Positions 17,706 to 37,715 of a stretch of DNA of 64,000 nt are shown here, piece by piece (position 1 is the stretch's first letter; the number at the start of each line of letters is the position of its first letter). The position numbers and the translations under genes were made by a program. The notes beneath the pieces were generated by a model, which was not told the origin of the DNA, ran no database searches, and was given only the letters and a program-made list of their open reading frames with translations. Source of the stretch: Allobosea sp. ASV33 (GTDB taxonomy: Bacteria > Pseudomonadota > Alphaproteobacteria > Rhizobiales > Beijerinckiaceae); NCBI RefSeq assembly GCF_016428755.1, contig NZ_JAELTI010000007.1, positions 1 through 64,000 of the forward strand, in the 5' to 3' direction.

Positions 17706-18899
17706 CTAATCCCCGAACTGATGGATCCAGCCGGTCTGTCTGATGATGCAGCGCTCGCGCTCGTAACCGGCGATGACGGTGTCCCGGGCGGTGCGGCGCA
17801 ATGGCCGCATCAGAGTGGGGCTCACTAGAGCTTCCGCAATCCGTTCCGCCAGCGCTTCGCTGTCGCGGAACGGGGCGAGCAGGCCGTTGGTGCCGTCGCG
17901 GATCACCTCTTTCACAGGCTCGGTGTCGGAGCCGACAACAAGACAGCCGCAGGCCATCGCCTCCAGCAGCGACCATGAGAGCACGAAGGGAACGGTGAGA
18001 TAGACATGGACGGCTGAGACCTGGAACAGCCGGATCAGGTTCTCATAGGGCAGCCAGGGAATATGGACGATCCGGTCGCCGAGCCCGGTTTCGGCGCACA
18101 TCGCTTCGCGCCAGCTATTGCCGTCGGAACGGGGGCGGCCATAGCCCGGGCCGTCGCCGCCGACCACGACGAAGAGCGCGTCGGGGCGGCGTTCCGCGAG
18201 AATCTTGGCTGCGCGCATGAATTCGGGATAGCCGCGATAGGGGTCGAGATCGCGCGCGACGAAGGTGACGACCGGCATGCCCGGCTTCAGTATCCGGCCG
18301 TCGGGCAGAACGAAGGCCGCCTCGGCATCTGGCCGGCAGACGCTCGTGTCGATGCCGTCATGGCAGACGGCGATGCGCTGGCGATAGGCCGCCGGATATT
18401 GCCGGCGCTGCCATTGCGTCGGCGCATAGGCGGCATCCAGCGTATCGAGGGCGAGGAGCTGGGCCGCGTTGCGCATCCGCACGCGCTGGCGATCGGCCGG
18501 GGGAATCGGCTCGTCGCTGCCGAAATCGAGGTCGGAGTCGGTGCTGCGATGGTAATATTCACAATAGCCGATCAGCGCCGCGTCGGGCAGCGCGTCACGG
18601 GCGAAGAGCATGCCGCCCCAGCCCATATGGCCGAGGACGACATCGGGCGGGTCGCTGCGCTTCAGGCGCTCCATCAACCGTGCCACCGCCTCCCCGGTGC
18701 GCAAGTGATATTCGGTCGCCGCGAGCGCGGGGTGCTGGGTCGCGGTCTCGTCGACCGCATAGACGAGCTGGCGCACGCCCGGCGCCTGCTGCGCCGGGCG
18801 TTCCGTGATCAGCGTGACCTCGGCGCCTTCGGCGACGAGGCTGCCGATCAGAGCAGCGAATTGACCAGATCCTGCGCGATGAACGAATAGGACATGCAT
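17706..18899 (-). CDS. Glycosyltransferase, GT4/GT-B type
   Basis: The ATG at 18899 gives 397 residues starting MHVLFVHRAGSGQFAALIGS, the first strand of a GT-B fold. The C-terminal half has VVTFVARDLDPYRGYPEFMR and the donor-site region SWSLLEAMACGCLVVGSDTE, which matches the GT4 EX7E block. It probably transfers a nucleotide-activated sugar on the cytoplasmic side. Its first 52 bp overlap the end of the MarR-type regulator gene in another frame. It reads away from the secretion and glycan operons, but its placement beside them suggests a shared glycan. Confidence 0.85.
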   Translation of the reverse strand: MHVLFVHRAGSGQFAALIGSLVAEGAEVTLITERPAQQAPGVRQLVYAVDETATQHPALAATEYHLRTGEAVARLMERLKRSDPPDVVLGHMGWGGMLFARDALPDAALIGYCEYYHRSTDSDLDFGSDEPIPPADRQRVRMRNAAQLLALDTLDAAYAPTQWQRRQYPAAYRQRIAVCHDGIDTSVCRPDAEAAFVLPDGRILKPGMPVVTFVARDLDPYRGYPEFMRAAKILAERRPDALFVVVGGDGPGYGRPRSDGNSWREAMCAETGLGDRIVHIPWLPYENLIRLFQVSAVHVYLTVPFVLSWSLLEAMACGCLVVGSDTEPVKEVIRDGTNGLLAPFRDSEALAERIAEALVSPTLMRPLRRTARDTVIAGYERERCIIRQTGWIHQFGD

Positions 18900-19462
18900 G
18901 ATGCGAGCAGCACTCCGCCGTAGCGGAGCGCGTCGTTCCACCACTGTTCGAGTTGGCGCAGGGTTTCGTGCGTCGTGTTGAGGTCGGTCTCGCGGTTGCT
19001 CTCCAACCGCTGGCCGAACTGGCTGGCCTCGTCGAGCAGCCGCAACCGCTCGCACAGCATCTGCCCTTTCAGCGAAAGCGAGATGCGGGCCTGCCGGCGA
19101 TCGCGCGGCGATGCCCCGCGATCGAGATAGCCGTTCTCGACGAGCTGCTTGAGATTATAGGACGCGTTCGAGCCGCCGTAGTGGCCGCGGTCCAGCAGAT
19201 CGCGCACGGCGATCTCGCCTTGTCCGATCGTCATCAGCACCATCACCTGCGATGGCGAGATGTCGTCGATGCCGAGCTTGGTCAGCTCGAGCCGGAGATA
19301 ATCCAGGAAGCGCCGGCTGACCCGCTCGATCACCCGCGCCAGATCAAAAGGGGAAATTCGGCGATCGGGGGCCTCGTCGAGGACACCGGAACCATTCGCC
19401 GGATGGTGGCCGTTCAAGGAACTGCCTGTGAATTGCTCGCCGCCGCGCAATTTGAAGTGCAT
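18848..19462 (-). CDS. MarR-family winged-helix regulator (LdtR-like)
   Basis: The 204-residue protein has the MarR core SPSQVMVLMTIGQGEIAVRD, then a recognition helix region GGSNASYNLKQLVENGYLDR and a wing with ASPRDRRQARISLSLKG. The recognition region resembles LdtR, the cell-wall regulator known from Liberibacter and Sinorhizobium; this likeness is from memory. It is divergent from the type I secretion genes and overlaps the adjacent glycosyltransferase gene. A regulator of envelope functions would fit this neighbourhood. The ligand is unknown. Confidence 0.85.
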   Translation of the reverse strand: MHFKLRGGEQFTGSSLNGHHPANGSGVLDEAPDRRISPFDLARVIERVSRRFLDYLRLELTKLGIDDISPSQVMVLMTIGQGEIAVRDLLDRGHYGGSNASYNLKQLVENGYLDRGASPRDRRQARISLSLKGQMLCERLRLLDEASQFGQRLESNRETDLNTTHETLRQLEQWWNDALRYGGVLLASCMSYSFIAQDLVNSLL

Positions 19463-19566
19463 TCCTTACCCCGCCTGATCGAAAATTAAACAATCCATCC
19501 GTTTGTCTCCTGTCGTGCCGAGAAGCCTATAGGCAAAGCACATGCCATCTACGTTAGCTAATAGAT

Positions 19567-19583
19567 AAGATTGTAGTAATCTT
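19567..19583. promoter_or_regulatory. Candidate MarR-type operator
   Basis: A perfect inverted repeat has arms AAGATT and AATCTT around a 5-bp spacer. Size and symmetry suit a MarR dimer. It lies 105 bp upstream of the regulator start and about 195 bp upstream of the secretion ABC gene, so it could serve autoregulation and control of the secretion operon. Support is positional only. Confidence 0.4.
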
Positions 19584-19683
19584 CAGATAGATGGAAACTA
19601 GTTCGAAATTCAAAATTTCTCATAGTCTGGCCTTATTTGCTTCCATCCGATTCGACGAGTTAGGCTTCTAATCTGTCATAATC

Positions 19684-19712
19684 TTGACACTCCCTCCATG
19701 TCTCGTTGTAGG
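19684..19712 (+). promoter_or_regulatory. Possible promoter of the type I secretion operon
   Basis: A consensus -35 box TTGACA at 19684-19689 is followed after 17 bp by TGTAGG, a weak -10 match. The predicted start would lie about 55-60 bp before the ATG at 19778. The -10 is poor, so this remains tentative. Confidence 0.25.
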
Positions 19713-19777
19713 GCCGATGACGGGGCTTTCCCCATAATTCTCTCGGACCTCAGATTCCCTCATTCGCGGAGCCTTGC

Positions 19778-21532
19778 ATGAAGGCGGTGAAGCCGGCCCC
19801 CGACGCCTTGATCCGGAATCTCCAGCGCTCGTTCGTCGGCGGCCTGACCTATGCGGCTGCGCTCAGCCTGTGCGTGAACCTGCTGCTGCTGACGGTGCCG
19901 CTGTTCATGATGCAGGTGCAGGACCGGGTGACCGTCAGCCGCAGCTACGACACGCTGACGATGCTGCTGGTGATCGCGGTTGGGGCGCTCGTGCTCTATG
20001 GCGTGATCGAGTTCATCCGGTCGCTGACCTTCCAGGCGATGGCGAGCATCTTCGCGCGCAATCTCAATTTGCCGGCTTTGCAGGCGGCGGTGAGCGCCTC
20101 GCTCGAGCAGGGCTCGGGGCAGGCGACGCAGGCGATCCGCGATCTCAACGACATCCGTTTCTTCATCGCGAGCTCGGCGATCGCTACGCCGCTCGAGGCG
20201 ATCTGGTCGCCGGTCTTCCTCGCGGTGCTCTTCGCGCTGCATCCGATCTACGGGCTGGTCGGCCTCGCCTCGCTGATCATCCTGCTGCTGCTCGGCGTGC
20301 TCTCGGACCTGCTGACCCGCCGCATCCTCAAGGACGCAAACGAGGCCGGTGTCGCCAGCATCAACGAGGTCGGCGCCAGCCTGCGCCATGCCGAGACGAT
20401 CGAGGCGATGGGCATGCTGCCGGCCCTGTCCAAACGCTGGCGCGGGCAGCAGCTCGCGATGATCGAGCAGCTCGACATGGGCACGCGGCGCGGCAAGTTC
20501 ATCGCCGCCGTGACGCGCTCGTCCCGGATGACGATGCAGCTCGCGGTCTATGCGACCGGCGCCGTCCTGATCATCCGCAACGAGGTGACGGCGGGCACGT
20601 TGATGGCCGCGAGCATCCTGCTCGGCCGCCTGCTGGCGCCGTTCGATTCCATGATAACCGACTGGCGGCAATGGGTTTTGTCCGCCGCGGCCTGGAAGCG
20701 CGTGCGCGAGCTGGTGCTGAGCCGCAGCTCACAGCGCCAGACCGTGCCGACGCCGCCCTGCCAAGGCGATCTCGTGATCGACCGCGTGATCTATGCGCCC
20801 GCGGGGCAGGAGCAGACGGTCATCAAGAGCGTCTCCTTCACGCTCTCGCCGGGCGAGGTGCTCGGCGTGGTAGGCCCCTCCGGTGCCGGCAAGTCGACCC
20901 TGGCGCGCCTGCTCGTCGGCGTGCTCAAGCCGAATGTCGGCGGCGTCTATCTCGATGGGCACAGCACCTATCTGTGGGAACGCGGCTCCTTCGGCGCGAT
21001 GGTCGGCTATCTCCCGCAATCGGTCTCGCTGCTCAACGGCACGATCGCCGAGAATATCGCCCGCATGCGCGAGCCCGACCCGCATGCCATCCTGGAGGCG
21101 GCGCGCATCGCCGGCGTGCACGAGCTGATCGGCCGCCTGCCCCTCGGCTACGACACCAATGTCGCCGACAGCGATTTCAATCTCTCGGGTGGGCAACGCC
21201 AGCGCATCGGCCTGGCGCGGGCGCTCTACGGCATGCCGCGCCTGATCGTGCTCGACGAGCCCAATGCCAATCTCGATGCCGAAGGCGAGCAGAGCCTGAT
21301 CCGGGCGATCGCGGCGGCGCGCGAGAGCGGCGCCATCGTCGTGCTCATCGCGCATCGCCCCTCGGTGATGCAGGTCGTCGACAAGCTGCTCGTGCTGCGC
21401 GAGGGCCGCGTGCAGCAGTTCGGGCCGCGCGGTGAGATCGCCGGCATGATCACGCCGGGCGGCCGCGTCGAGCTCGATCCGGCTGCCAAGGCTCCGGCGG
21501 CTCCGGCCCATGTGCGCGAGGTGAAGGCATGA
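19778..21532 (+). CDS. Type I secretion ABC transporter (permease-ATPase, PrtD type)
   Basis: The 584-residue protein has an N-terminal membrane domain of about 320 residues and a C-terminal ATPase. Walker A is GPSGAGKST at 366-374, the signature is LSGGQRQRIGLARALYG and Walker B is RLIVLDEPNANLDAEGE. There is no C39 peptidase or C39-like domain in front, so it belongs to the PrtD/AprD subgroup that exports RTX proteins with C-terminal signals. A GGAG ribosome site lies 6 bp before the ATG. It overlaps the adaptor gene by 4 bp, and the RTX protein at 23185-23979 is the obvious cargo. No TolC-like outer-membrane gene is in the window. Confidence 0.93.
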   Translation: MKAVKPAPDALIRNLQRSFVGGLTYAAALSLCVNLLLLTVPLFMMQVQDRVTVSRSYDTLTMLLVIAVGALVLYGVIEFIRSLTFQAMASIFARNLNLPALQAAVSASLEQGSGQATQAIRDLNDIRFFIASSAIATPLEAIWSPVFLAVLFALHPIYGLVGLASLIILLLLGVLSDLLTRRILKDANEAGVASINEVGASLRHAETIEAMGMLPALSKRWRGQQLAMIEQLDMGTRRGKFIAAVTRSSRMTMQLAVYATGAVLIIRNEVTAGTLMAASILLGRLLAPFDSMITDWRQWVLSAAAWKRVRELVLSRSSQRQTVPTPPCQGDLVIDRVIYAPAGQEQTVIKSVSFTLSPGEVLGVVGPSGAGKSTLARLLVGVLKPNVGGVYLDGHSTYLWERGSFGAMVGYLPQSVSLLNGTIAENIARMREPDPHAILEAARIAGVHELIGRLPLGYDTNVADSDFNLSGGQRQRIGLARALYGMPRLIVLDEPNANLDAEGEQSLIRAIAAARESGAIVVLIAHRPSVMQVVDKLLVLREGRVQQFGPRGEIAGMITPGGRVELDPAAKAPAAPAHVREVKA

Positions 21533-22887
21533 CCGGAAACTCCCTGATCAAGCGCCCCGAGCATTCGCTGACGATCCAGGGCGACGTGGTCGATGTCGAT
21601 GACGAGCGGGCGCCGAGCCTGCGCAATCTCGTGCTGGCCGGCGTCGCCGCAATCGGCGTCGGCTTCGGCGGTTTCGGCGCCTGGGCGGTGACCGCACGGC
21701 TCGACAATGCCGCCGTCGCACCGGGCCTCGTGGCGGTCGACAGCAAGCGCAAGACCGTCAGCCATCTCGAAGGCGGCATCCTCAAGACCCTGCTCAAGGC
21801 CGAGGGCGAGCGCGTCGCGCGGGGCGAACCGCTGCTGCGGCTGGAGGATGCGCGCCAGCGTGCGGAATTGCAGCAATTGCAGGCCAAGCGCATCGGGCTG
21901 GAAGCCAAGCTCGCACGCCTGCGGGCTGAACAGACCAGCGCCGGCGAGATCGCGTTTCCCGCCGATATCGCGCAGATGACCTCGCCGATCGCCCGCGAGG
22001 TGCTCCTCTCGGAACAGGGCCTGTTCAAGTCCCGTGCCCAGGTCCATGACGGGAAGGTCCATATCCAGCAGCGCGTGATCGAGCAGCATCAGGCGGAATC
22101 GGATGCGCTGAAGGCCCAGATCGACGCCACCGTCCAGCAGCGCTCGCTCATCGACGAGGAGGTCAGGATCATGGCCGAGCTCTACGAGAAGCGCTACGCC
22201 AAGCGCAGTCAGCTCGTCGAGCTCCAGACCAAGCAGAGCGAGCTCTCCGGCAAGGCCGGCGAGCTCACGGCCCGCAAGGCCAAGGCCGAGCAGGCGGTCG
22301 CCGGGGCCAATCTCGAAATCCTTTCGATCAGCCTCGAACAGCAGAACGATATCGGCGGCGAGATTCAGGAAGCCCAGTTGATGCTTTCGGAGGTGACCGA
22401 GCGCATCGTCCAGGCCGAGGACGTGCTGCGCCGGCTGGTGGTGACCGCGCCGCAGGAAGGCGTCGTCGCCAATATCCGGATGCGCACGGCTGGCAGCGTG
22501 ATCGCGGCCGGCGAAGCGATCCTCGATATCGTGCCGGAGCACGAGCCCCTGATCGTCGAGGCGAAGGTCGATCCTCGCGACATCGATGCCGTGAAGGTCG
22601 GGGCCGCGACCCGCGTGCGGCTGACCGCGTTCAACTCGCGCCTGCTGCCGCCCTTGGAGGCCAAGGTTAACTATGTCGCGCCGGACCAGCTCGTCGATGA
22701 GAAGTCAGGCGCGCCCTATTTCGTGGTGCGGGCCGAGATCGATCCCAAAAGTTTGCGGGATTACAAGGTCACGCTCCATGCCGGCATGACGGCGGAGGTC
22801 ATGATCGTCAACGGCGCCCGCCGCGCGGTCGACTACCTGCTCTCGCCGATCACCGACAGCTTCAACCGCGCCTTCCGCGAGGATTGA
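21529..22887 (+). CDS. HlyD/PrtE-family periplasmic adaptor of type I secretion
   Basis: The 452-residue protein has one N-terminal membrane helix (about 31-57), a first lipoyl half (SHLEGGILKTLLKAEGERVA), a long coiled-coil region over about 110-300 and the second half with VVTAPQEGVVANIRMRTAGS. The C-terminal barrel ends in LHAGMTAEVMIVNGARRAVD. This is the usual adaptor that bridges the inner-membrane ABC exporter to a TolC-type channel. It is translationally coupled to the ABC gene. Confidence 0.93.
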   Translation: MTGNSLIKRPEHSLTIQGDVVDVDDERAPSLRNLVLAGVAAIGVGFGGFGAWAVTARLDNAAVAPGLVAVDSKRKTVSHLEGGILKTLLKAEGERVARGEPLLRLEDARQRAELQQLQAKRIGLEAKLARLRAEQTSAGEIAFPADIAQMTSPIAREVLLSEQGLFKSRAQVHDGKVHIQQRVIEQHQAESDALKAQIDATVQQRSLIDEEVRIMAELYEKRYAKRSQLVELQTKQSELSGKAGELTARKAKAEQAVAGANLEILSISLEQQNDIGGEIQEAQLMLSEVTERIVQAEDVLRRLVVTAPQEGVVANIRMRTAGSVIAAGEAILDIVPEHEPLIVEAKVDPRDIDAVKVGAATRVRLTAFNSRLLPPLEAKVNYVAPDQLVDEKSGAPYFVVRAEIDPKSLRDYKVTLHAGMTAEVMIVNGARRAVDYLLSPITDSFNRAFRED

Positions 22888-23184
22888 GCCCTCGTCGACG
22901 ATGCGCAGCCGGGCACACCCGCATAGCCGGACTTATATTTCGATTTTGAAAGTATATCCGTTGGAATATCGATAGTTTATTGATCGTAAAATAAAGACCA
23001 AATCATGCTGCGTCGCAAAATGATCACAATAAAAGACTTGCTGCGCTGCAGCTATTGAGCAATCTTCGTGCGGTCGAGCGATGGCCTGATCTATTGATGG
23101 CTGTCGGAATCGTTCCTGGTCTTTCCGTTCCGCGGTGCGGCCGCCGAACGTTCCAGGTTCACCAGATCGCCCAGGAGGTGCCGT
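22888..23184. other. AT-rich leader of the RTX gene
   Basis: The gap of 297 bp between the adaptor gene and the RTX gene has a strongly AT-rich core (about 22930-23045) in an otherwise GC-rich region. I see no convincing coding frame or hairpin terminator in it. The drop in GC suggests an independent promoter and a long untranslated leader for the RTX gene. An AGGAGG ribosome site lies just before the ATG at 23185. Confidence 0.5.
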
Positions 23185-23979
23185 ATGGCGACGATCGAAG
23201 GAAGTGCATTCGACGATTTTTTGATTGGGACGCGTTTCAGCGACGTGATCCACGCAGGCGCCGGGGATGACATCGTCCATGGCGGAGACCAGGTCGATAC
23301 CCTGTTCGGCGAAGAGGGCAATGATCTCCTGTTCGGCGATAGCGGCAATGACGCCCTGTTCGGCGGCGAGGGCAACGACATCCTCTTCGGCGGACTCGGC
23401 GACGATGTCCTGTCCGGCGACGAGGGCAACGATGCGCTGTTCGGTGGTGAGGGCAACGACATCCTGCTCGGCGGCGCCGGTGACGACATCCTGCGCGGCA
23501 ATGCCGGCGACGACGTCCTGATCGGTGGCGAAGGCAACGACGTGCTGCAAGGCGGGCCGGGCAACGACATCCTCCAGGGTGGCGCTGGCAACGACGTCCT
23601 GCAGGGTGGCGATGGCACCGACATCCTGCATGGCGGCGACGGCAACGACATCCTGCAGGGTGGCGCCGGCGACGACATGCTGTTCGGCGGTGCCGGCAAC
23701 GATATCCTGCATGGCGGCGCGGGCGCCGATACCTTCGTGTTCGCCGGCGGCGGCGGCAACGACGTCGTGCTCGACTTCCAGGCCGGCACGGACATGCTGC
23801 AGATCGCGTCCGACATCAACGGCACGGGCGTCCACTCCGCGGAAGACGTCGCTGCGCGTGCGACCACGGTCGGCGGCAACACCGTCATCGATCTCGGCAA
23901 CGGCGACAGCCTGACCCTGGTCGGTGTCTCCGCCGACGACGTTCAGGCCGATCCGAACTCCTACTTCACGGTCGCCTGA
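23185..23979 (+). CDS. RTX calcium-binding protein, predicted type I secretion cargo
   Basis: The 264-residue protein has no N-terminal signal peptide. Residues 25-186 consist of 18 consecutive nonapeptides of type G-G-x-G-x-D-x-L-x (for example GEGNDILFG, GAGDDILRG), which fold as a calcium-loaded parallel beta roll. The last 78 residues (VVLDFQAGTDMLQIASDING onward, ending NSYFTVA) resemble the M10 serralysin C-terminal secretion region. There is no protease, lipase or adhesin domain. It should be exported unfolded by the transporter encoded just upstream and fold outside in calcium. Function beyond surface or matrix calcium binding is unknown. Confidence 0.92.
   Translation: MATIEGSAFDDFLIGTRFSDVIHAGAGDDIVHGGDQVDTLFGEEGNDLLFGDSGNDALFGGEGNDILFGGLGDDVLSGDEGNDALFGGEGNDILLGGAGDDILRGNAGDDVLIGGEGNDVLQGGPGNDILQGGAGNDVLQGGDGTDILHGGDGNDILQGGAGDDMLFGGAGNDILHGGAGADTFVFAGGGGNDVVLDFQAGTDMLQIASDINGTGVHSAEDVAARATTVGGNTVIDLGNGDSLTLVGVSADDVQADPNSYFTVA
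23257..23742 (+). repeat. Tandem RTX nonapeptide-coding repeats (27-bp units, 18 copies)
   Basis: Eighteen in-frame 27-bp units encode the beta roll. Units 4-9 also show an 81-bp higher-order period: nonads DSGNDALFG-GEGNDILFG-GLGDDVLSG are followed by DEGNDALFG-GEGNDILLG-GAGDDILRG. This suggests growth by duplication of three-nonad blocks. Copies differ at silent and non-silent positions, so the array is not freshly expanded. Confidence 0.9.
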
Positions 23980-24050
23980 TCCTGATGCCGCCTCTCGTCC
24001 GGCCGAAGCGGCCGGGCGAGAGGCTCGCAAGCCCGGAGCGCGCACGCCCC

Positions 24051-28485: not shown

Positions 28486-29234
28486 CAACGGCTCAGTATC
28501 AGGACAACGAAACCCGCCTTCCCAACGTCAATCCCGCACGCCTGAACGGACGGGTCGACGCCCTCGACGGCAGCCGCCTGCATGGCTGGATCTGGGACGA
28601 GGCCCGTCCCGACGAGGCGATCACGGTCAGGATTTCCTGCGACGGCAAGGTCGTCGCGGAGACCAAGGCCGACCAGAGCCGCATCGATCTGCGCCGCAAC
28701 GGCATCGGCGACGGCAAGCATGCCTTCTCGATCGATCTCGACGAGGCGCTGGTCGCAGCACGCGCACGTCTGACGGTGGTCGGCATTTCGCCTGCGACGG
28801 GGGCGGAATTCGAGCTGCGCCTGCCGGCGGCTGACGAGCTCGCGGCGGAAGCGGCGATCGCCGTGCCGTTGGCGCGCTTCTTCGACAAGGTCGAGATGCT
28901 GATCGTGCTCAACCGGCGCGCCCAGCTCGCCCAGAAGGAGCTCAACGAGAAGCTCGACCGCATCGCGGCGCGGCTCGAGGAGAACCATGCGCTGGCCGAG
29001 GCGACCAAGGCCGAGACCGAGAGCCAGAGCGAGATCGTGCGCCGGCTCGGCGAGCTCGACGTCTTCCAACTGCGCTTCGACGGCACCTTGCGCGGTTTCG
29101 ACGCGCGGCTCGATGCGATCCGTAAGGAAGCGCGGGCGCCGCTCAGGCAGGTCACGGTCATCCTCGGCTTTCTGTCGGCGCTCGCGGCCGTGATGTCCTT
29201 CGTCACGCTTGCTGTGACGCTCTGGGGAGGGTGA
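28482..29234 (+). CDS. Membrane-anchored coiled-coil protein with beta-sandwich-like N-terminal module
   Basis: The ATG at 28482 gives 250 residues. The N-terminal 110 residues (GRVDALDGSRLHGWIWDEAR and following) look like a small beta-rich module seen beside glycosyltransferases. A helical, charge-rich stretch over about 140-220 (NEKLDRIAARLEENHALAEA) is a predicted coiled coil. One hydrophobic helix at the C-terminus (TVILGFLSALAAVMSFVTLA) would anchor it in the membrane. I cannot name a family. Between two glycosyltransferase genes, it could be a scaffold, a chain-length or localisation factor, or a link to the secretion apparatus. Confidence 0.7.
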   Translation: MTTAQYQDNETRLPNVNPARLNGRVDALDGSRLHGWIWDEARPDEAITVRISCDGKVVAETKADQSRIDLRRNGIGDGKHAFSIDLDEALVAARARLTVVGISPATGAEFELRLPAADELAAEAAIAVPLARFFDKVEMLIVLNRRAQLAQKELNEKLDRIAARLEENHALAEATKAETESQSEIVRRLGELDVFQLRFDGTLRGFDARLDAIRKEARAPLRQVTVILGFLSALAAVMSFVTLAVTLWGG

Positions 29235-29237: not shown

Positions 29238-31439
29238 ATGAGCGAGGTCATCGTTCCCGAGAGGACAGCGATCGCGCAGGCGCCGACCGTCTCCTGGACG
29301 CCGCTCGGCGAGAACGCGATCCTCGTCCGCAGCCATTGCGATGCGATTCCTGCGAAGGTGCCGGTCGCGGTCGACGGCAATCCGCGCAACCGCGCGCAGA
29401 CGATGGTGCTGAGCTGGCACCGGCCCGGTGCCGAGCCTTCGGCGGCGACCGGGTTTCTGTGTCTCGCTCCCGCGCCCAGCGTCGACAATAGCGGCACCGG
29501 CGCCCTGTTGATCGGGCGCCCCGGCCGTCCCTTGCGCCTGATCCTGGCGCCGAAGCCTCAACCCCTGCAGACGTTCCTGTCGGAGCTCGCCGACGATTCC
29601 GGCCAGGCTTTTCCGAGCGTCGTTGACGGCCTGCTCGAAGTGCTGCTGACCGGCGCGCCCAATCCGCGCCGCCTGCGGGCCGTGGCGATGTTGTTGCAGA
29701 CGGTTGCGCGGCCGGGCGGCTTCGTCGAGGTGATGGGCAAGCTTGGCGAAACCGGCGGTGCCGGTGACGGCATCTTCCTCCAAGGCTGGACCTCCCATTT
29801 CGCGGCGGGTCGCGTGAAGCTGCTGATTTCGCATGGCGGGCTGTCGCCGGCCCATCTCGAAACCGGGACCTTCGAGCGCGACGATCTCGGCGAAGGTGCG
29901 CGCGGCTTCTTCGGGCTGCTAGAGGATTGCCACGCCCAGCATCCCGGCGAGATCGAGCGGCTCTATTTCCGCGGCAATGACGGCTGGCGCGCGCTTGAGG
30001 TCTATGAGCGCCATGTCCTGCTCGAGCCGATCACCGTGCCCGGCCATCTGCGCGACGGCTTGCAGCGCGGGACTGCCCCGCAGGCCACCGTCGATAAGTT
30101 GAAGCGCGCCTCGCAGCGCTTCGACGGGCGCGACACGGTCTGCCTGCTGGAGGAGCCGGTGCGCGCCGGTATCGACTCGGTGACGGTGGTCGAGGGGACC
30201 GGCGTGCTGATCATCGGCTGGCTGTTCGATCCCGAGCGCCGGGTCGGCGGCGTCACGCTGCGCAGTGGCAGCCAGTCCTGCGCCGTCGATCGCTTGTGGA
30301 CCCGCGTGCAGCGCGCCGATGTGACGGCCGCCTTCATGGAAGACCCGCGCTTCGGCCCAGCGCTGGCCTCGCGGCGCAACAATCACGGCTTCATCGTCTT
30401 CGCGCCGAAGCTGCTTCCCGAAGCCGGCCAACCGCTGTATCTCGCCTTGGAGGTGCAGGGCACGGGCCCCGCCTTCCTGCCGCTCGAACCCAACCGGGCC
30501 CCGGCGCGGCGCGCGCTGGAGCGCGTGCTCGGCCTGCTCGACCCGCGCTCCTCCACCGCCAGTTCCGTGGTCGAGCGCCAGATCGCGCCGGCCCTGCAGG
30601 CGGCCGAGATCGCGCCGCCGCGCGCCGCGGAAACGCTCGATGTCGGCGCCTTCGATCCGGAAGCCCCGCTCGGCCTCGTCATCGGCCTCGATCACCGTCA
30701 CCGCGAGTTGTCGGCGCTGTTTGCGCTGCTGGCGATGGACCCGGAGGCGCGGCCTCTGCCGATCGTGCTTGCGGCGCCCTCCGAGAGCTTCGACCGCGTC
30801 GGCGCCGAGGCCCGGCGGCTCGCGCGCTTCTATGGGCTTTCCGTGCGGCTCGTCGCGGTCGAGGGCGTCGAGGATGCCTGCGATGCGCTGGAGGCCGGCG
30901 TGCGGGCTTGTCGCTTCAACACGGTCGCCTTGTTGTCCGGCGCCGCGCAGATCCGCATGCCCGGCTGGCTCGGCCGGCTGGAGCGGGCCTATCGCGCGCG
31001 CGGCGGCCAATGCGTGGCGAGCCCGACCTTGCTCTTCGAGGATGATTCCATCCGCTGGGCCGGTGCCTGGCTGGAAGGCGAGCGGGCGAGCCGGCGCATC
31101 GCCAACCGTTTCGTCGGCTATCCCTTGGAGGCCGTCGGCAATCTCGGCCCAATGGAGGTCGCGGCCGGCGCGAGCGAATGCTGCGTGCTGTCGCGCGCGG
31201 CCTTCATCGAGGTCGGCGGCTTCGCGCGCAATTACTTCACCACGGCGGAGAAGGGGCTCGATCTCTGCCTCAAGCTCCGGATGGCGGGCTCGCCCTCGCT
31301 CTGGGTGCCCGACGTCGAGGTCTATGCCGTCGACGACCCGGAGACCGCGACGCCCCATGCGGGTGCGCTCGCCCAACTCGCCGACCGCACCAGTTTCGAC
31401 CGGCGCTGGGCGCTCGCCATCTCCAACATGAAAGGCTGA
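29238..31439 (+). CDS. GT2-like protein with degenerate active site
   Basis: The 733-residue protein has a long N-terminal part, a middle module with VLIIGWLFDPERRVGGVTLR similar to the module in the preceding gene, and from about residue 476 a GT2-like domain (LGLVIGLDHRHRELSALFAL). Compared with the neighbour at 24114-26405, the NSD donor motif is replaced by SGA (LLSGAAQIRMPGWLGRL) and the YEDSD base motif by AEKGLD. The fold seems kept while metal-binding and base residues are lost. It may be a pseudo-enzyme partner of an active transferase, or use another chemistry. Confidence 0.75.
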   Translation: MSEVIVPERTAIAQAPTVSWTPLGENAILVRSHCDAIPAKVPVAVDGNPRNRAQTMVLSWHRPGAEPSAATGFLCLAPAPSVDNSGTGALLIGRPGRPLRLILAPKPQPLQTFLSELADDSGQAFPSVVDGLLEVLLTGAPNPRRLRAVAMLLQTVARPGGFVEVMGKLGETGGAGDGIFLQGWTSHFAAGRVKLLISHGGLSPAHLETGTFERDDLGEGARGFFGLLEDCHAQHPGEIERLYFRGNDGWRALEVYERHVLLEPITVPGHLRDGLQRGTAPQATVDKLKRASQRFDGRDTVCLLEEPVRAGIDSVTVVEGTGVLIIGWLFDPERRVGGVTLRSGSQSCAVDRLWTRVQRADVTAAFMEDPRFGPALASRRNNHGFIVFAPKLLPEAGQPLYLALEVQGTGPAFLPLEPNRAPARRALERVLGLLDPRSSTASSVVERQIAPALQAAEIAPPRAAETLDVGAFDPEAPLGLVIGLDHRHRELSALFALLAMDPEARPLPIVLAAPSESFDRVGAEARRLARFYGLSVRLVAVEGVEDACDALEAGVRACRFNTVALLSGAAQIRMPGWLGRLERAYRARGGQCVASPTLLFEDDSIRWAGAWLEGERASRRIANRFVGYPLEAVGNLGPMEVAAGASECCVLSRAAFIEVGGFARNYFTTAEKGLDLCLKLRMAGSPSLWVPDVEVYAVDDPETATPHAGALAQLADRTSFDRRWALAISNMKG

Positions 31440-31441
31440 GG

Positions 31442-32746
31442 ATGCGGATTCTCGTGATATCGCACGGCCATCCTTCGCTCTCGCTCGGCGGGGCGGAGGT
31501 GGCGTCCTACAACCTGCACAAGGGTTTGCAGGTCGGCGAGGGCGTCGATTCCCATTTCCTCGCCCGCGTCGGCGCACCGACGCCGCGCCATGCCGGCACG
31601 GCGCTGATGAGCCTGCGCCAGCGCGGCGGCGAATTGCTCTACTACGCCGAGGATTACGACCACTTCCTGATCTCGAACCGGGCGACCGACGAGATCGAGC
31701 GCGATTTCGTGCGCGTGCTGCACGATCTGAAGCCCGACGTGGTGCATTTCCACCATTTCATCGGGCTTGGGCTCGAATGCCTGTTCGCGGTACGCGATGC
31801 GCTGCCTGATGCGCTGATCGTGGTGACCTTCCACGAATATCTATCGATCTGCCACCACCACGGCCAGATGGTGAAGACCGGGGCCTTCAAGCTCTGCTAC
31901 CGGGCCTCGCCGACCGATTGCAACGCCTGCTTCCCGGAGATCTCGCCGGCCCGCTTCCTCGCCCGCGAGACCTTCATCAAGGGTATGCTGGGGCTGGCCG
32001 ACCATCTCGTATCGCCGAGCCGCTTCCTCGTGGATCGCTATGTGGACTGGGGCCTCTCCGAGGAGCGCTTCTCGGTGATCGAGAACGGCATCGACGTGGC
32101 CGCCGCCGCCCCGCCGCGCCCTCTCCCGGAAGGTAAGGGGCGCCGCTCGCGCTTCGCCTATTTCGGCCAGCTCACGCCCTACAAGGGCGCCGACGTGCTG
32201 ATCGACGCGGTGACGCGCATTCCCGAGAAGGTTTGGGGCGAGGATTCGATCCTGCTCGTCTATGGCGGCAACCTGGAGCGCCAGCCGCAGGCCTATCAGG
32301 ACAAGTTCGCGAAGCTCGTCGAAGCGGCCGGGCGGCGCGTGCGCTTCTGCGGCGCCTTCCAGAACCGCGAGATGCCGAACCTGATGCGCTCGGTCGACTG
32401 GATGGTGATGCCCTCAGTCTGGTGGGAGAACTCGCCGATCGTGATCCAGGAGGCGTTCTTCCATGGCCGTCCGATCCTGGCTAGCAATCTCGGCGGCATG
32501 GCCGAGAAGATCACAGACGAGGTCGACGGCCTGCATTTCCGACCCGGCAGCCCGGAAGACCTCGTCGACTGCATGACGCGCGCGCTGACCGAGCCCGGCC
32601 TCTGGGAGCGCCTGCGCGGCGGGATCAAGCGGCCGATGAGCCATGTCGAATGCGCGGACGCGCATCTCGACCTCTATCGCCGCCTCCTCACCGAACGCAG
32701 CAAGCCTGCCGCCGCGCGGCAGGACCAAGCCGCGATGATCGCCTGA
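31442..32746 (+). CDS. Glycosyltransferase, GT4 type (paralogue of 27238-28485)
   Basis: The protein has 434 residues starting MRILVISHGHPSLSLGGAEV. The donor block is MPSVWWENSPIVIQEAFFHG, with the EX7E pair. The Cys/His insertion ICHHHGQMVKTG, LCYR, DCNACFPEI matches that of the other GT4 in the operon, so the two arose by duplication or share an acceptor type. It starts 2 bp after the degenerate GT2 gene. Confidence 0.88.
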   Translation: MRILVISHGHPSLSLGGAEVASYNLHKGLQVGEGVDSHFLARVGAPTPRHAGTALMSLRQRGGELLYYAEDYDHFLISNRATDEIERDFVRVLHDLKPDVVHFHHFIGLGLECLFAVRDALPDALIVVTFHEYLSICHHHGQMVKTGAFKLCYRASPTDCNACFPEISPARFLARETFIKGMLGLADHLVSPSRFLVDRYVDWGLSEERFSVIENGIDVAAAAPPRPLPEGKGRRSRFAYFGQLTPYKGADVLIDAVTRIPEKVWGEDSILLVYGGNLERQPQAYQDKFAKLVEAAGRRVRFCGAFQNREMPNLMRSVDWMVMPSVWWENSPIVIQEAFFHGRPILASNLGGMAEKITDEVDGLHFRPGSPEDLVDCMTRALTEPGLWERLRGGIKRPMSHVECADAHLDLYRRLLTERSKPAAARQDQAAMIA

Positions 32747-32778
32747 AACCATAACGAAACAACAGGGGAGACCCGACC

Positions 32779-33975
32779 ATGGCCCGCATCCTCGTCATCA
32801 GCCCCTCCGGGGAGGTCTATGACCACGACAATGTCCGCTGGTATCGCCATGCCGATCTGCAGAGCCATATCGAGCACTACCACAATATCGGCGATGCGTT
32901 CGTTTTCGATTCCTCGCTGAAGCTGCTTAATTTCGAAGTGATCGACGAATTGCCGATCGACCGTGTCGATCCCGCGATGATCGACCGGCTCAATGCCGAG
33001 TACGATTACGTCTTCCTGCGCGGCTCCAACTACGTCCATGCGCAGATGAACTGGTCGAAGGCGGCCGAGGTGTTGCGCAGGCTCAAGCTGCCGGTGATCG
33101 CCTTCGGCATCGGCGCGCAGGCTCCGGTCAGCGGCAAGCTGGAGCTGAGCGAGGACACCAGGACCGTGCTCAAGCTCATCTCGGATTCGACGGCGTCGCT
33201 CGGCGTGCGCGGCACCTATTCGGCGGAGGTGCTGAACGATCTCGGCATCCGCAATGTCCGCATCATCGGCTGCCCGACGGCGTTCCGGAACAACGATCCC
33301 AACCTCGCCATCCGCCTGCCGTCGCTCGATCGGATCAAGACTGTGGGCGTCACGCTGCGGCGCGAGGTCTCGAAGACCTATGCGCAGGACATCAAGCGCT
33401 ATCTCACCTTCCATCGCTCCCTCGTGAAGGCGATGGCCGATCGCTTCGAGGTCACGCTGATGTCCCAGGGCGAGGTCGAGGAGAAGAAGCTCGCGCTCGG
33501 CACGCCCGAGCAGAAGGCACAGGCGCTCGCCGCGCTGAAGGAGAACGAGTGGGCCAATAACTGGTATCTCGATGAGCAGGTCACCGGGCTCTACCAGAGC
33601 CGGATGTTCTATTCCGACATCGTCGCGGAATACGAGCGGCTGGTGCGCGGGCTCGATCTCGTGCTCGGCTACCGGCTGCACGGCAACCTGATGGCGCTCG
33701 CGAACGGCACGCCGTCGATCTACTTCACCTATGACAGCCGCACGGTCGAGTTCGCGGATACCTTCAAGATTCCGAGCATCGACGTCTTCGCCGGCCAGGA
33801 TTTCAGGCTGGAGGAGCACTGGGAGCAGGCGCGCTTCGACCGTTTCAATACGGCCTACGCGCAAGTCTATCGCGCGATGAGCGCCTTCCTCAGCGAGAAC
33901 AGGATCGACCACAAGATGGCCAAGCCGGCTGCTGCTGCCCAGGAGGCGCCCGCGCCGGAACGGAAGGTGGCATGA
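32779..33975 (+). CDS. Polysaccharide pyruvyl transferase family protein (1)
   Basis: The 398-residue protein begins ARILVISPSGEVYDHDNVRW and has the family features VFLRGSNYVHAQMNWSKAAE, a repeated Rossmann-like layout and the block GYRLHGNLMALANGTPSIYF with the conserved His. Enzymes of this family add pyruvate ketals to sugars using phosphoenolpyruvate, or act in related capping. An AGGGGAG ribosome site lies about 10 bp upstream. It shares extended similarity with the protein at 35141-36598, for example EVYDHDNVRWYR versus EVYDHDKVRWYR. Confidence 0.82.
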   Translation: MARILVISPSGEVYDHDNVRWYRHADLQSHIEHYHNIGDAFVFDSSLKLLNFEVIDELPIDRVDPAMIDRLNAEYDYVFLRGSNYVHAQMNWSKAAEVLRRLKLPVIAFGIGAQAPVSGKLELSEDTRTVLKLISDSTASLGVRGTYSAEVLNDLGIRNVRIIGCPTAFRNNDPNLAIRLPSLDRIKTVGVTLRREVSKTYAQDIKRYLTFHRSLVKAMADRFEVTLMSQGEVEEKKLALGTPEQKAQALAALKENEWANNWYLDEQVTGLYQSRMFYSDIVAEYERLVRGLDLVLGYRLHGNLMALANGTPSIYFTYDSRTVEFADTFKIPSIDVFAGQDFRLEEHWEQARFDRFNTAYAQVYRAMSAFLSENRIDHKMAKPAAAAQEAPAPERKVA

Positions 33976-35144
33976 GGGGCGCCCGCACCCTGCGCGCGGC
34001 GCTGTCGGCGGCATGTCTGCTGTTGGCAGTGCCTGCGATGGCGCAGGGCTATCGACTCGAGCTTGCGCCCGGCGCGCAGGAGGAGACGGTAGTGTCCTGG
34101 GCACGCGAGCGCTGCGAGGAATGGGACCTGCCGGACGCGCCACTGCGTGCCTTCCGCGACGACAAGGGCGATGTCGTCGCCTTCGCCAGCCATTATCGCA
34201 GCCGGCCGCTGATCGGCGCCGACCTATCATCAATCCGCAAGAGCTGCGCGGTGTCCTTCGAAGCGAAGAACAGCGCCGATCCCAGCCAGTTCAGCGACAA
34301 GAGCTGGATCGCCGCGACCTGGACCGGCGACGGGCGCCATGTCCAGGCGCTTGTTCACGCCGAATACCATGCCGACAAGCATCCCGGCGCCTGCCGCTTC
34401 AAGGAGGCGATGAGCTGCTGGTACAATGTCGTGACTGCCGCTCAGTCCGATGATGGCGGGCGCAGCTTCAGGACCGACGAGCCGCGCCCGCTCGTGGCGG
34501 CGCCGCCTTACAGGCAGGATGTCGGCCAGGGGCGGCATCGCGGCTTCTTCAACCCCTCGAATATCGTCGAGAAGGACGGCGCCTGGTATGCGCTGATCGC
34601 GACGACGGGCGGCGAGGGCCAGAAGAACGGCGTCTGCCTGTTCCGGTCGACGGACCTCAAGGATCCGACGACCTGGCGCGCCTTTGACGGGCAGGATTTT
34701 ACGATTCCCGCCGTCGATCCCTATCGCGACGATCTGAGCCAGGCGCGACCATGCCAGCCACTGAAGAACCTGCCGACCACGGTCGGCTCGGTCACCCGGC
34801 ACGAGGTGAGTGGGCAATGGCTCACGATCTTCCATCTCGGCCCCGATCCCCGGCAGGGCATCGTCGGCGGGCGCGTTGCCTATAGCTGGTCCAAGGACCT
34901 CGTGACCTGGTCGCCGCTGCAGACGCTGATCACGCATCCGACGATGTGGAGCAAGGATTGCGGCGACCGCGACCGTTACAGCTACGGCGCCGTCGCCGAT
35001 CCGGCCTCGCGCTCGCGCAATTTCGAGACCACGGGCGACCAGCCCTTTCTGTTCATGACCAAGATGCATGTCGCCGACTGCAAGGTCGGCCCGCAGCGCG
35101 ATCTCGTCCGTATCAAAATCCGCATCGTGAAGGACAATCCATGA
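33972..35144 (+). CDS. Secreted beta-propeller-like protein (glycoside-hydrolase-like)
   Basis: The 390-residue protein has a Sec signal peptide (MRGARTLRAALSAACLLLAV, cleavage after AMA). The mature part has repeated segments of type SxDGGxSF (AAQSDDGGRSFRTDEPRPL), FFNPSNIVEKDGAWYALIAT and CLFRSTDLKDPTTWRAFDG. These are typical of five-bladed propeller folds of glycosidases and sialidase-like proteins. Catalytic residues cannot be assigned by eye. It lies between two pyruvyltransferase-like genes with 4-bp overlaps on both sides, so a role in trimming, binding or remodelling the exported glycan is likely. Confidence 0.68.
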   Translation: MRGARTLRAALSAACLLLAVPAMAQGYRLELAPGAQEETVVSWARERCEEWDLPDAPLRAFRDDKGDVVAFASHYRSRPLIGADLSSIRKSCAVSFEAKNSADPSQFSDKSWIAATWTGDGRHVQALVHAEYHADKHPGACRFKEAMSCWYNVVTAAQSDDGGRSFRTDEPRPLVAAPPYRQDVGQGRHRGFFNPSNIVEKDGAWYALIATTGGEGQKNGVCLFRSTDLKDPTTWRAFDGQDFTIPAVDPYRDDLSQARPCQPLKNLPTTVGSVTRHEVSGQWLTIFHLGPDPRQGIVGGRVAYSWSKDLVTWSPLQTLITHPTMWSKDCGDRDRYSYGAVADPASRSRNFETTGDQPFLFMTKMHVADCKVGPQRDLVRIKIRIVKDNP

Positions 35145-36598
35145 ATGCGCCCGCCCATCCGCTTCCGGCCAGCCAGGCCGTGCAGAGCATGAAGATCCTG
35201 CGCGCCACCACGCAGGAGGTCGTCGTACTCGTCGCGCGCGAGCCCGGCGGAAGCTGGCCGTCATTGCGCCTGCTCATCGACGGGCAGGACTACGCCACGA
35301 TCAACCCGGGCGCGCTCGCCACCGGTGATGCGACCGTGGCCGAGATCGCCATTCCGCTGCCGGCCCTGCCGGAGACGCGTTTGCGCTCGATCGCGGTCGC
35401 GGATGCGCGGACCGGCGCGCTCGCGCCCGGCTCGGAATTGCGCCCGGTCTCGAAGACGAAGCCGCTGCGGGCGCTGGTGATCTATCCCGCGGGCGAGGTC
35501 TACGACCATGACAAGGTGCGCTGGTATCGCGCGCCGATGGAGAAGCTGCTCAGCGACTATTTCAACATCGGCGACATGATCGTCTACGATTCGACGCTGA
35601 AGCTCCTCGATTACGCGCATCTGGAGCCGATGAAGATCATGTCGCCGACGGATGCCGATATCGCGCGCTATGCCAGCGAGTTCGATTTCGTCTTCGTGCG
35701 CGGCTCGAACTTCATCCATGAGAGCATGGAGTGGTTCCGCGCCGTCGAGGTGCTGGAGAAGGTCAAGCTGCCGGTCTACGCCATCGGCGTCGGCGCGCAG
35801 GCGAGCCAGAACCGCCGCATCGAACTGCCGGAAGCCTCGAAGCGCTTCTGGTCGATCGTGGCCGAGCGTTCGGCCGCCATCGGCGTGCGCGGGGCTTTCA
35901 GCGCCGAGACACTCCGGCAGAACGGCATCCGCAATGTCGAGGTGGTGGGCTGCCCCTCGATCTTCCGGACCCGCAATCGCGACCTCAGGATCCGCATTCC
36001 CGACCAGCGCGACATCCGCAAGGTTGCGTTCAGCCTGCGCCGCGAGGCCGACAAGAGCTATACCGCCGATCCGGAAGCCTATTTGCGCAACCAGAAGGCC
36101 GCGCTGCTCAAGGTCGACGCCCAAAGCGAGATGGTGATGTCCTCGCATGGCGAGCAGGAGGAGAAGGCCTTCTTCCTGCGCGATCCCGCGGCCAAGGAGA
36201 AGGCGGTCGCCGAATTCACCCGCACCGGCTGGTGGAACGGCGCTGACGACGCCGCGATGCGGCGGATCTACGAGAAGCAGCTGTTCTCCTTCTTCGACGT
36301 CGAGCATTACGACGCCTTCGCCCGCTCGCAGGACCTTGCCGTGGGCTATCGCGTCCATGGCGTGCTGCCGGCCGTGGCGCATGGCGTGCCCGGCGTGCTC
36401 GTCGCCTATGACACGCGCAGCCAGGAACTGGCCGAGACGCTGAAGATCCCGGTCGTGCCGGAGGCGGCGCTCGCCGAGGGCGGCTGGCGCGCGGTCTATC
36501 AGGAGGCGGCGCTGAACGGCCTCGCGAAGAGCTATGCCGGCTCCTACGACCGGATGCGCGGCTTCCTCGACCGGAACGGCATTCCCCACCGGATGTAA
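35141..36598 (+). CDS. Polysaccharide pyruvyl transferase family protein (2)
   Basis: The ATG at 35141 gives 485 residues. An extra N-terminal domain of about 105 residues (VQSMKILRATTQEVVVLVAR onward) precedes the pyruvyltransferase-like part (LRALVIYPAGEVYDHDKVRW). The block GYRVHGVLPAVAHGVPGVLV carries the conserved His. The two family members in the operon are similar along their length, which suggests duplication followed by divergence in acceptor choice. Confidence 0.8.
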   Translation: MNAPAHPLPASQAVQSMKILRATTQEVVVLVAREPGGSWPSLRLLIDGQDYATINPGALATGDATVAEIAIPLPALPETRLRSIAVADARTGALAPGSELRPVSKTKPLRALVIYPAGEVYDHDKVRWYRAPMEKLLSDYFNIGDMIVYDSTLKLLDYAHLEPMKIMSPTDADIARYASEFDFVFVRGSNFIHESMEWFRAVEVLEKVKLPVYAIGVGAQASQNRRIELPEASKRFWSIVAERSAAIGVRGAFSAETLRQNGIRNVEVVGCPSIFRTRNRDLRIRIPDQRDIRKVAFSLRREADKSYTADPEAYLRNQKAALLKVDAQSEMVMSSHGEQEEKAFFLRDPAAKEKAVAEFTRTGWWNGADDAAMRRIYEKQLFSFFDVEHYDAFARSQDLAVGYRVHGVLPAVAHGVPGVLVAYDTRSQELAETLKIPVVPEAALAEGGWRAVYQEAALNGLAKSYAGSYDRMRGFLDRNGIPHRM

Positions 36599-36620
36599 GG
36601 GGTAGCCCGGACCCATGAAC

Positions 36621-36644
36621 GGCCTTCGCGGAGGCGCGAAGGCC
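36621..36644 (+). other. Intergenic hairpin before the GSCFA gene
   Basis: A perfect 8-bp stem (GGCCTTCG with CGAAGGCC) encloses an 8-nt loop, with further partial pairing of TAGCC outside it. It fills the 82-bp gap between the second pyruvyltransferase-like gene and the GSCFA gene, the largest gap in the operon. It may act as an attenuator or mRNA stabiliser. Confidence 0.45.
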
Positions 36645-36680
36645 TCCCGGCTATCGGCTTCCACCAACCAGGAGACGATC

Positions 36681-37715
36681 ATGAAGATCGAGTACGATGC
36701 GGGCACGGCCCTTTCGATCATGCGCGGCAACCCGGTGCGCGGCTGGACCTCGGGCAAGCCCGAGAAGATGGCGAAGGAGCGCCTGACCACCGGCGACTAT
36801 GTCGCGGTGGAGCATAAGTCGAAGTTCCGGCTCGATCCTTCGGAACCGATCTTCACGATGGGGTCGTGCTTCGCGCGCGAGGTCGAGAACATCCTGATGG
36901 CGCGGGGCCTGCCGCTGCTGCTCGAAGGCCATGGCGTGCCGGCCGAGCATTTCGAGAGCTGGAACGAGGAGAGCGGGCGCGGCGGCGGGGCCGATCGCGG
37001 CCAGCTCAGCCGGGGCGCGCTGAACAAGTATTCGGTGCGCTCGATGACGCATGAGCTCAAGCGCGTCCTGACGGGCGAGAGCTATCCGGACGAGGGGTTG
37101 ATCGAGCTCGCGCCCGGGCAATGGTTCGATCCGCAGGCGAGTGGTCTCAAGCTGCTCGATCGCGAGAGCGCCTTCGCCAACCGCAAGCGCCTGACCGCGG
37201 CCACCGCGCAGATCAAGCAGGCACGCGTCTGCTTCTTCACGCTGGGCCTGACCGAGACCTGGCTGGACGCGCAGACCGGCATCGCCATGAACGCCCATCC
37301 AGGCCCGGTCTGGCTGCAGCGCATGCCGGAGCGCTTCCGCTTCGTCGATTACGGCTATGACGCGACGCTCGCCGACATGCTCGACATCATCGGGCTGATC
37401 CGCGAGCACTGCCACCCGGAGATGCGCTTCGTCGTCACGGTATCGCCGGTGCCATTCGGCGCGACATTCAAGGATGCCGACGTCATCGTCGCCAACAGTG
37501 CGTCCAAATCGGTGCTGCGGGCGGTGGCGGAGGAACTGTTCCGCCGCTTCGATTTCGTCGACTACTTCCCGAGCTACGAGATCGTGCTCAATTCGCCGCG
37601 CGCGCTCGCCTTCCAGGACGACCAGCTCCATGTCGCGCGCGACATGGTCGCGCATGTGATGGAGACGTTCCAGAGCGCCTATCTCGCGCCGCAGGAGCAG
37701 CCGCAAGCGGCTTGA
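36681..37715 (+). CDS. GSCFA-domain protein (SGNH-like)
   Basis: The ATG at 36681 follows an AGGAG site. The 344-residue protein carries the name-giving motif MGSCFARE at 60-67 and the later ARVCFFTLGLTETWLDA and FVVTVSPVPFGATF. The GSCFA family is related to SGNH esterases/acyltransferases and is often found with surface-polysaccharide genes. There is no signal peptide, so it would act in the cytoplasm, perhaps on an acyl group of a glycan precursor. It is the last gene of the operon. Confidence 0.85.
   Translation: MKIEYDAGTALSIMRGNPVRGWTSGKPEKMAKERLTTGDYVAVEHKSKFRLDPSEPIFTMGSCFAREVENILMARGLPLLLEGHGVPAEHFESWNEESGRGGGADRGQLSRGALNKYSVRSMTHELKRVLTGESYPDEGLIELAPGQWFDPQASGLKLLDRESAFANRKRLTAATAQIKQARVCFFTLGLTETWLDAQTGIAMNAHPGPVWLQRMPERFRFVDYGYDATLADMLDIIGLIREHCHPEMRFVVTVSPVPFGATFKDADVIVANSASKSVLRAVAEELFRRFDFVDYFPSYEIVLNSPRALAFQDDQLHVARDMVAHVMETFQSAYLAPQEQPQAA

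Follow-up and report, generated by a model that had tools for sequence, protein, structure and literature searches.

The stretch of DNA analysed here (the window) comprises 64,000 nucleotides of Allobosea sp. ASV33 (assembly GCF_016428755.1, contig NZ_JAELTI010000007.1, positions 1 to 64,000), and contains a locus, at positions 17706 to 37715, in which genes for a type I secretion system and a calcium-binding RTX protein are packed against genes for glycosyltransferases and other glycan-related enzymes. The core of this locus is the known core of the wg (also termed exp) cluster of Sinorhizobium meliloti; the resemblance is real, and the genes that lie downstream of it make the locus a variant. 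We consider it highly probable that the locus is an exopolysaccharide locus of the wgd-wge type that has no wga operon, and that its product is a polymer, probably pyruvylated, other than galactoglucan.

Fifteen genes make up the locus. Two of them, encoding a family 4 glycosyltransferase (GT4) and a MarR-type regulator, are read from the minus strand, while thirteen, beginning with a PrtD-type exporter and ending with a GSCFA-family protein, are read from the plus strand; ten of the latter follow the RTX gene, encode glycosyltransferases, a methyltransferase, two PF04230 proteins, a propeller protein and the GSCFA protein, and end at 37715. Pfam matches were obtained for all of the fifteen but WgeE, WgeF and the propeller protein, hence for 12 genes, and an NCBIfam scan covered ten of the fifteen proteins. 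From the RTX gene to the GSCFA gene each gap measures between -4 and +32 bases, and two larger gaps, of 315 bases between the divergent MarR and PrtD genes and of 297 bases between the HlyD and RTX genes, leave two tightly packed plus-strand groups, the first consisting of exporter and adaptor and the second running from the RTX gene to the GSCFA gene. The genes are as follows, with identities given relative to S. meliloti.

17706 to 18899, minus strand: WgcA (ExpC)-type GT4 glycosyltransferase; PF12000/PF00534 (scanned from 18893); 50% over 398 amino acids; start at 18899
18848 to 19462, minus strand: WggR (ExpG)-type MarR regulator; PF12802; 52% over 161 amino acids to the frame in the same place; divergent from the exporter gene
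19778 to 21532, plus strand: WgdA (ExpD1), PrtD-type type I secretion ATPase/permease; TIGR01842, 605 bits (cut-off 510); 59%
21529 to 22887, plus strand: WgdB (ExpD2), HlyD-type adaptor; TIGR01843, 348 bits (cut-off 209); 49%
23185 to 23979, plus strand: WgeA (ExpE1), RTX calcium-binding protein, the presumed cargo; PF00353, 7 stretches; 51% over 263 amino acids
23985 to 26405, plus strand: WgeB (ExpE2), family 2 glycosyltransferase (GT2) with a long N-terminal part; PF13641/PF00535; 42%; alternative starts at 24114 and 24138; NSD and EDSD motifs present
26402 to 27241, plus strand: WgeC (ExpE3), S-adenosylmethionine-dependent methyltransferase; PF13489; 53%
27238 to 28485, plus strand: WgeD (ExpE4), GT4 glycosyltransferase; PF13692; 55%
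28482 to 29234, plus strand: WgeE (ExpE5), small protein that carries a hydrophobic stretch near its C-terminus; no Pfam or NCBIfam match; 40% over 203 amino acids
29238 to 31439, plus strand: WgeF (ExpE6), apparently a degenerate GT2 paralogue of WgeB; GT-A fold; 36%
31436 to 32746, plus strand: WgeG (ExpE7), GT4 glycosyltransferase; PF13692; 60%
32779 to 33975, plus strand: polysaccharide pyruvyl transferase 1, at the position of wgeH; PF04230, 100 bits
33972 to 35144, plus strand: exported beta-propeller (SecP), probable glycoside hydrolase; propeller fold, no Pfam match
35141 to 36598, plus strand: polysaccharide pyruvyl transferase 2; PF04230, 92 bits
36615 to 37715, plus strand: GSCFA-family protein; PF08885, 161 bits; possible start at 36681

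With the adaptor as query, tblastn against plasmid records pointed to the pSymB plasmid of S. meliloti, and a 41-kilobase (kb) stretch of that plasmid was then compared with all fifteen window proteins; because the pSymB record carries no annotation, wg gene names were assigned by gene order and from reviews. Eleven genes of the window proved to be collinear and co-oriented with wgcA, wggR, wgdA, wgdB and wgeA through wgeG (36-60% identity). In both organisms wgdA and wgdB are followed by the RTX gene wgeA (59%, 49% and 51% identity), wgeB through wgeG stand in order behind it, and wggR and wgcA point in the opposite direction (52% and 50%); the window differs in having no wgeH, in the failure to find wgaA and wgaB in its genome, and in a downstream tail of its own, made up of two pyruvyltransferases, the exported propeller and the GSCFA protein. 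A sequence-only reading of this DNA had named these genes and placed them correctly in every case, as judged by Pfam, including the MarR regulator and the additional GT4 gene on the opposite strand; its further statement that no described system has this set does not stand, and the notion of an undescribed system is ruled out by the same eleven genes, in the same order, on pSymB.

Passages of two reviews describe the S. meliloti cluster as one of 22 genes (PMC3233446) that directs the synthesis of galactoglucan, or exopolysaccharide II (EPS II) (PMC1403797, PMC3233446). According to the same passages, ExpE1 (WgeA) is a secreted calcium-binding protein whose secretion requires ExpD1 and ExpD2 (WgdAB), mutants in these genes are blocked in EPS II production, and WggR (ExpG), a regulator of the MarR type, recognizes and binds palindromes that precede wgaA, wggR/wgdA and wgeA; a further rhizobial system, PrsDE, is also of the PrtD type (PMC1403797). 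An excerpt of a third report indicates that WgeA secretion depends on TolC, and that its absence explains the missing galactoglucan of an S. meliloti tolC mutant (PMC2912261). In the window, the exporter and the adaptor both score above the curated NCBIfam cut-offs, and six TolC-family (PF02321) matches over the cut-off lie elsewhere in the genome, so that all the parts by which a PrtD-type type I system is recognized are present.

The distribution of this core was examined by an alignment-based scan of genome contigs for WgeF, which returned 116 confirmed stretches, from which 80 loci were kept. The closest are ten Bosea-like loci (nine of them Bosea), at 77-97%; the others belong to Thalassospira, Azorhizobium, Stappia, Phyllobacterium, Falsochrobactrum, Brucella/Ochrobactrum, Sinorhizobium/Ensifer, Rhizobium, Neorhizobium and Kaistia, or to further Rhizobiales, which brings the core to 11 alphaproteobacterial genera when Ochrobactrum is counted with Brucella and Ensifer with Sinorhizobium. 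All nine genes from the exporter to WgeG were found, and were collinear, in 75 of the 80 loci, a figure that describes linkage given WgeF, because the loci were selected by that gene. The remaining five are truncated: three (L046, L048 and L064) are complete but for the exporter, at the limit of the flanking sequence retrieved, and two (L060 and L090) sit on short contigs, 3 and 5 kb in length. Two of the 75, from Brucella cytisi LMG 22713 (L091) and B. oryzae NBRC 102588 (L100), were counted despite several genes matching in pieces; there the exporter, adaptor and pyruvyltransferase matches are fragmented, through frame breaks or assembly errors.

A test independent of that selection was provided by a sample of 150 genomes of the order and another of 385 genomes of the class, both of which include the ASV33 genome itself, and in which the adaptor scores cover the 11 best candidates of each order genome and the 4 best of each class genome. 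Adaptor homologues occur in 133 of the 150 order genomes, and those of at least 390 bits are confined to four, which are the same four whose WgeF match reaches at least 500 bits; in each of them WgeF lies 6-9 kb from the adaptor on the same contig (in G126 as two overlapping pieces). The other PrtD-type systems of the order share the exporter type, but their best adaptor outside the WgeF genomes reaches only 267 bits. In the class sample WgeF was found (at an expectation value of 1e-40 or better) in seven genomes, and the six best adaptors, all of at least 339 bits, are located in six of those seven and on the same contig as WgeF; in G275 the adaptor and WgeF lie on different contigs, and in G472 and G549 both genes share a strand but WgeF comes ahead of the adaptor, corresponding to a rearranged core. 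One class genome (G253) has an adaptor of 331 bits and no WgeF match, which weighs against strict coupling, and the gap between adaptor groups is small at the level of the class. The adaptor subfamily nonetheless goes with the glycan genes. The earlier proposal that exporter, RTX protein and glycan genes act as one system is thus borne out by the order sample, by six of the seven class genomes and by the reported phenotype of the tolC mutant, and the check that it had suggested, conservation of gene order, gave the collinear core; the circumstance that it had named as damaging, RTX and exporter genes that are widespread without the glycan operon, holds for type I exporters generally and does not hold for this adaptor subfamily.

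Within the core, WgeF is related to WgeB (28% identity, expectation value 6e-16) and displays a GT-A fold, and yet an aspartate at the position of the NSD motif is found in 0 of 82 WgeF sequences as against 71 of 71 WgeB sequences (11 further WgeB rows that covered less than half or contained an internal stop were left out, and many rows are close relatives). It therefore does not display the DxD-type/ED catalytic motif by which an active GT2 enzyme is recognized and, judged by its sequence, WgeF is a conserved glycosyltransferase paralogue without a catalytic motif. The literature passages that were searched assign WgeF no role, and contain no account of its degeneracy or of the link between the adaptor subfamily and glycan genes; a limited search of open-licence literature likewise found no publication combining pseudoenzyme, glycosyltransferase and galactoglucan. 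A viral origin was considered and rejected, as none of 114 pattern matches in the corresponding scan of viral contigs was confirmed.

What sets the locus apart from its S. meliloti counterpart was established by searches of the ASV33 genome, a draft of 401 contigs, in which wgaA found no match and wgaB found only GT4-type frames of at most 39 bits. The same queries, applied to 34 genomes that hold related loci from among the 80, detected close copies of both wgaA (at least 520 bits) and wgaB (at least 1328 bits) in the same 17 genomes; 5 others gave distant versions, and the last 12 gave weak matches or none. Eleven of the 34, Bosea included, bear the propeller gene, and ten of these are without full wgaA/wgaB; among the 23 others (one of which, L090, is too short for its tail to be called) 16 have full wga, 5 have distant versions and 2, both Azorhizobium (L059 and L061), have none. 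The one propeller-bearing genome with wga is that of Bosea thiooxidans DSM 9653 (locus L045, genome G154), in which wgaA/wgaB lie at C18:162772-166888, its only WgeF lies on C26, the tail is of the propeller type and wga is unlinked to the locus. WgeH has no match in the window, and is found in 13 of the 80 loci, carried by Sinorhizobium/Ensifer, Rhizobium, Neorhizobium and one further Rhizobiales record. Because wgaA, wgaB and wgeH give no match and the tail differs, the locus is read as a wga-less variant that probably makes another pyruvylated polymer.

The tail itself varies across the 80 loci, in counts that are lower bounds where contigs end early: pyruvyltransferase 1 stands alone in 38, is joined by a propeller in 17, and is followed by propeller, pyruvyltransferase 2 and GSCFA in 8 and by the same set without GSCFA in 2, while 15 have none of these. 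A copy of pyruvyltransferase 1 that is more than 55% identical lies behind wgeG in 65 of the 80; both PF04230 proteins of the window are only 21-27% identical to the S. meliloti pyruvyltransferase pair, and their place differs from that of the pair. Loci from Thalassospira, Stappia and two Phyllobacterium-like genomes resemble the window in carrying the core, pyruvyltransferase 1 and a downstream propeller gene, but their propellers are only 25-37% identical to that of the window and they have no GSCFA gene, which is restricted to 8 of the 80 loci, all Bosea-like. Relatives of the GSCFA protein are not special to the locus (29 of the 150 order genomes), and a sequence search of solved structures returned no match for it and only a weak invertase match (expectation value 0.07) for the propeller. 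The latter has the fold that characterizes propeller-fold glycoside hydrolases, its residues D161 and D231 are invariant in an alignment of 19 sequences, and this exported protein is a probable glycoside hydrolase. In one Bosea-like locus (L044, 17297 to 18238, plus strand) the GSCFA gene is replaced by another frame that looks, by eye, like a glycosyltransferase. The tail of the Thalassospira locus L046 includes a frame (14870 to 15865, plus strand) resembling, by eye, uridine diphosphate-glucose 4-epimerase, and a second (18482 to 19141, plus strand) resembling a deoxythymidine diphosphate (dTDP)-sugar epimerase, with 45% identity to a wga-side frame of S. meliloti; these frames hint at the sugars used there.

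Palindromes of the kind bound by WggR were also sought. No near-perfect palindrome (7/8 arm matches) is present in the promoters of the window, and the looser scan then applied gave two candidate sites.

19599 to 19617, no strand: candidate WggR palindrome between the regulator and exporter genes; 12/16 of TACTTCRANNNTYGAAGTA; among the top 3 sites of the 64 kb; weak
22936 to 22954, no strand: candidate WggR palindrome upstream of the RTX/glycan operon; 13/16; ranks first, without a tie, among all sites of the 64 kb

The other 12/16 site, at 23184, overlaps the start of the RTX gene. Shuffles of the region scored as well in 4 of 2000 cases for the 22936 site and in 94 of 2000 for the 19599 site, and an AT-rich control, being one 300-base window only, was uninformative. 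Across other loci, the ten Bosea-like ones (L036-L045) have sites of 12-14/16 in the region before wgeA, rhizobial loci such as L035, L065, L107 and L113 have palindromes of the TACTTCAAnnnTTGAAGTA type before wgdA that match at 16/16, and the best sites before wgdA in Thalassospira, Azorhizobium and Stappia reach only 10-12. The candidate sites are suggestive of WggR-like regulation but do not prove it.

Taken with the S. meliloti precedent, these observations can be assembled into a sequence of steps. The WggR-like regulator would act from the palindromes before the exporter operon and the RTX/glycan operon; WgdA and WgdB, together with a TolC protein encoded elsewhere, would secrete WgeA, as is reported for S. 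meliloti, and WgeA would fold with calcium outside the cell. To judge from their domains, WgcA, WgeB, WgeD and WgeG would build the sugar chain and WgeC would methylate it, while WgeF would assist another enzyme, probably its paralogue WgeB, without being catalytic itself. The two pyruvyltransferases would render the polymer acidic, the GSCFA protein may change its acyl groups, and the exported propeller might trim it outside; secreted WgeA would be needed for the production, release or retention of the polymer. A bolder version of this scheme, which we regard as unlikely, holds that the wgd-wge core is a self-contained system of polysaccharide synthesis and export that depends on an RTX protein secreted along with the polymer. 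An enzyme and a pseudo-enzyme, WgeB and WgeF, would together make the chains; these would pass through the type I exporter in the company of WgeA or attached to it, and the final polymer would be set by interchangeable accessory sets (wga and wgeH, or pyruvyltransferase, propeller and GSCFA). If true, this would represent a route of polysaccharide export other than Wzx/Wzy, ABC-2 or synthase.

Several points weigh against the reading of the locus as a wga-less wgd-wge system working in this manner. The absence of wga is the outcome of a sequence search in a fragmented draft, and unrelated enzymes could supply the same steps; the accessory sets are not strict alternatives, since two Azorhizobium genomes lack both wga and propeller; the fold match of the propeller identifies neither a substrate nor an activity; the consensus used for the palindromes was widened (R, Y) after a Bosea site in L040 was known, and the site at 19599 is weak, being equaled by 94 of 2000 shuffles. 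Furthermore, a passage of one review gives wgdA and wgdB a potential part in polymerization instead of protein secretion (PMC3233446), and an excerpt on Rhizobium favelukesii LPU83 describes genes like expD1, expD2 and expE1 without synteny to the rest (PMC7902896).

This last case, and the sheer abundance of type I adaptors in the order, are what speak for the exporter and RTX gene being an independent secretion module, only accidentally adjacent to a glycan operon with which it has no relation; set against the collinear core of the 75 loci, and against the coincidence of high-scoring adaptors and WgeF in the same four order genomes, such an arrangement is extremely improbable. Nor is it likely that the locus directs the same galactoglucan as in S. 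meliloti, with other genes supplying the missing steps. Core transferases that are 42-60% identical and the presence of two pyruvyltransferases would fit that view, but wgaA and wgaB were not found in a genome whose relatives yielded close copies of both in half of the control sample, four dTDP-sugar frames of S. meliloti have no match within the window, and wga expression is, according to a passage of one review, required for high-molecular-weight EPS II (PMC3233446).

Two further explanations concern the RTX protein itself. It might be a glycoprotein or carrier, on which the glycan is built or to which it is bound in the cytoplasm, so that the type I exporter carries both out. The type I system is the only recognized exporter in the conserved core, and among the 12 Pfam-matched genes of the locus, to which the search for flippases was confined, none encodes a flippase, a Wzy-type polymerase, an ABC-2 exporter or an initiating transferase that acts on a lipid carrier; the explanation offered for the loss of polysaccharide in the tolC mutant, absent WgeA secretion, would also agree with it (PMC2912261, in excerpt). 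Against this, WgeA contains 13-34 serine and threonine residues, 74 of 75 sequences are without cysteine, and 23 aligned sequences show no conserved N-sequon or Ser/Thr-rich region, so that the sequence-only suggestion of a glycosylated RTX protein finds no support in the sequences. EPS II is moreover secreted in two size fractions, as stated in a passage of PMC1403797, and we consider a carrier of this kind improbable. The alternative is a calcium-dependent anchor, by which the RTX protein would itself be the material of a coat or would attach the coat to the surface glycan specified by the neighboring genes. The Caulobacter surface layer (S-layer) is the precedent, with a calcium-binding RTX protein that leaves by type I secretion and is encoded beside O-antigen genes. 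In the window, likewise, type I secretion genes adjoin surface-glycan genes, and the 23 aligned WgeA sequences, with both ends conserved and a variable number of repeats between them, would suit a structural protein; the data are compatible with calcium-dependent anchoring. WgeA, at 201-286 amino acids in 75 sequences, is however small, unlike the large S-layer protein. The supernatant of the S. meliloti tolC mutant is reported, again in excerpt, to be without polysaccharide, which loss of anchoring alone would not produce (PMC2912261), and an anchor as the explanation of the locus is improbable.

Read as a wga-less exopolysaccharide system of the wgd-wge type, the locus shows that the galactoglucan-type core of RTX protein, type I secretion system and glycosyltransferases is not confined to rhizobia, and instead behaves as a conserved block with exchangeable tails; comparison across these loci makes testable the question of why a secreted RTX protein controls polysaccharide production. 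No publication on the Bosea version was found in the limited open-licence literature search, and such loci outside rhizobia may be published.

Beyond the locus, twenty-two flanking frames, representing part of the flank, were scanned and contain no glycan-synthesis domains; their domains are those of a transporter, a lyase, an oxidoreductase, a cytochrome oxidase, a solute-binding protein, a major facilitator superfamily protein and others, and one further frame has no match. Farther downstream in the window, a caspase-domain protein (PF00656; 50899 to 52344, minus strand) adjoins an OmpA-domain protein (49671 to 50849, minus strand), and a protein encoded at 52513 to 53772 on the plus strand carries three DUF4399 stretches and a weak PEGA match.

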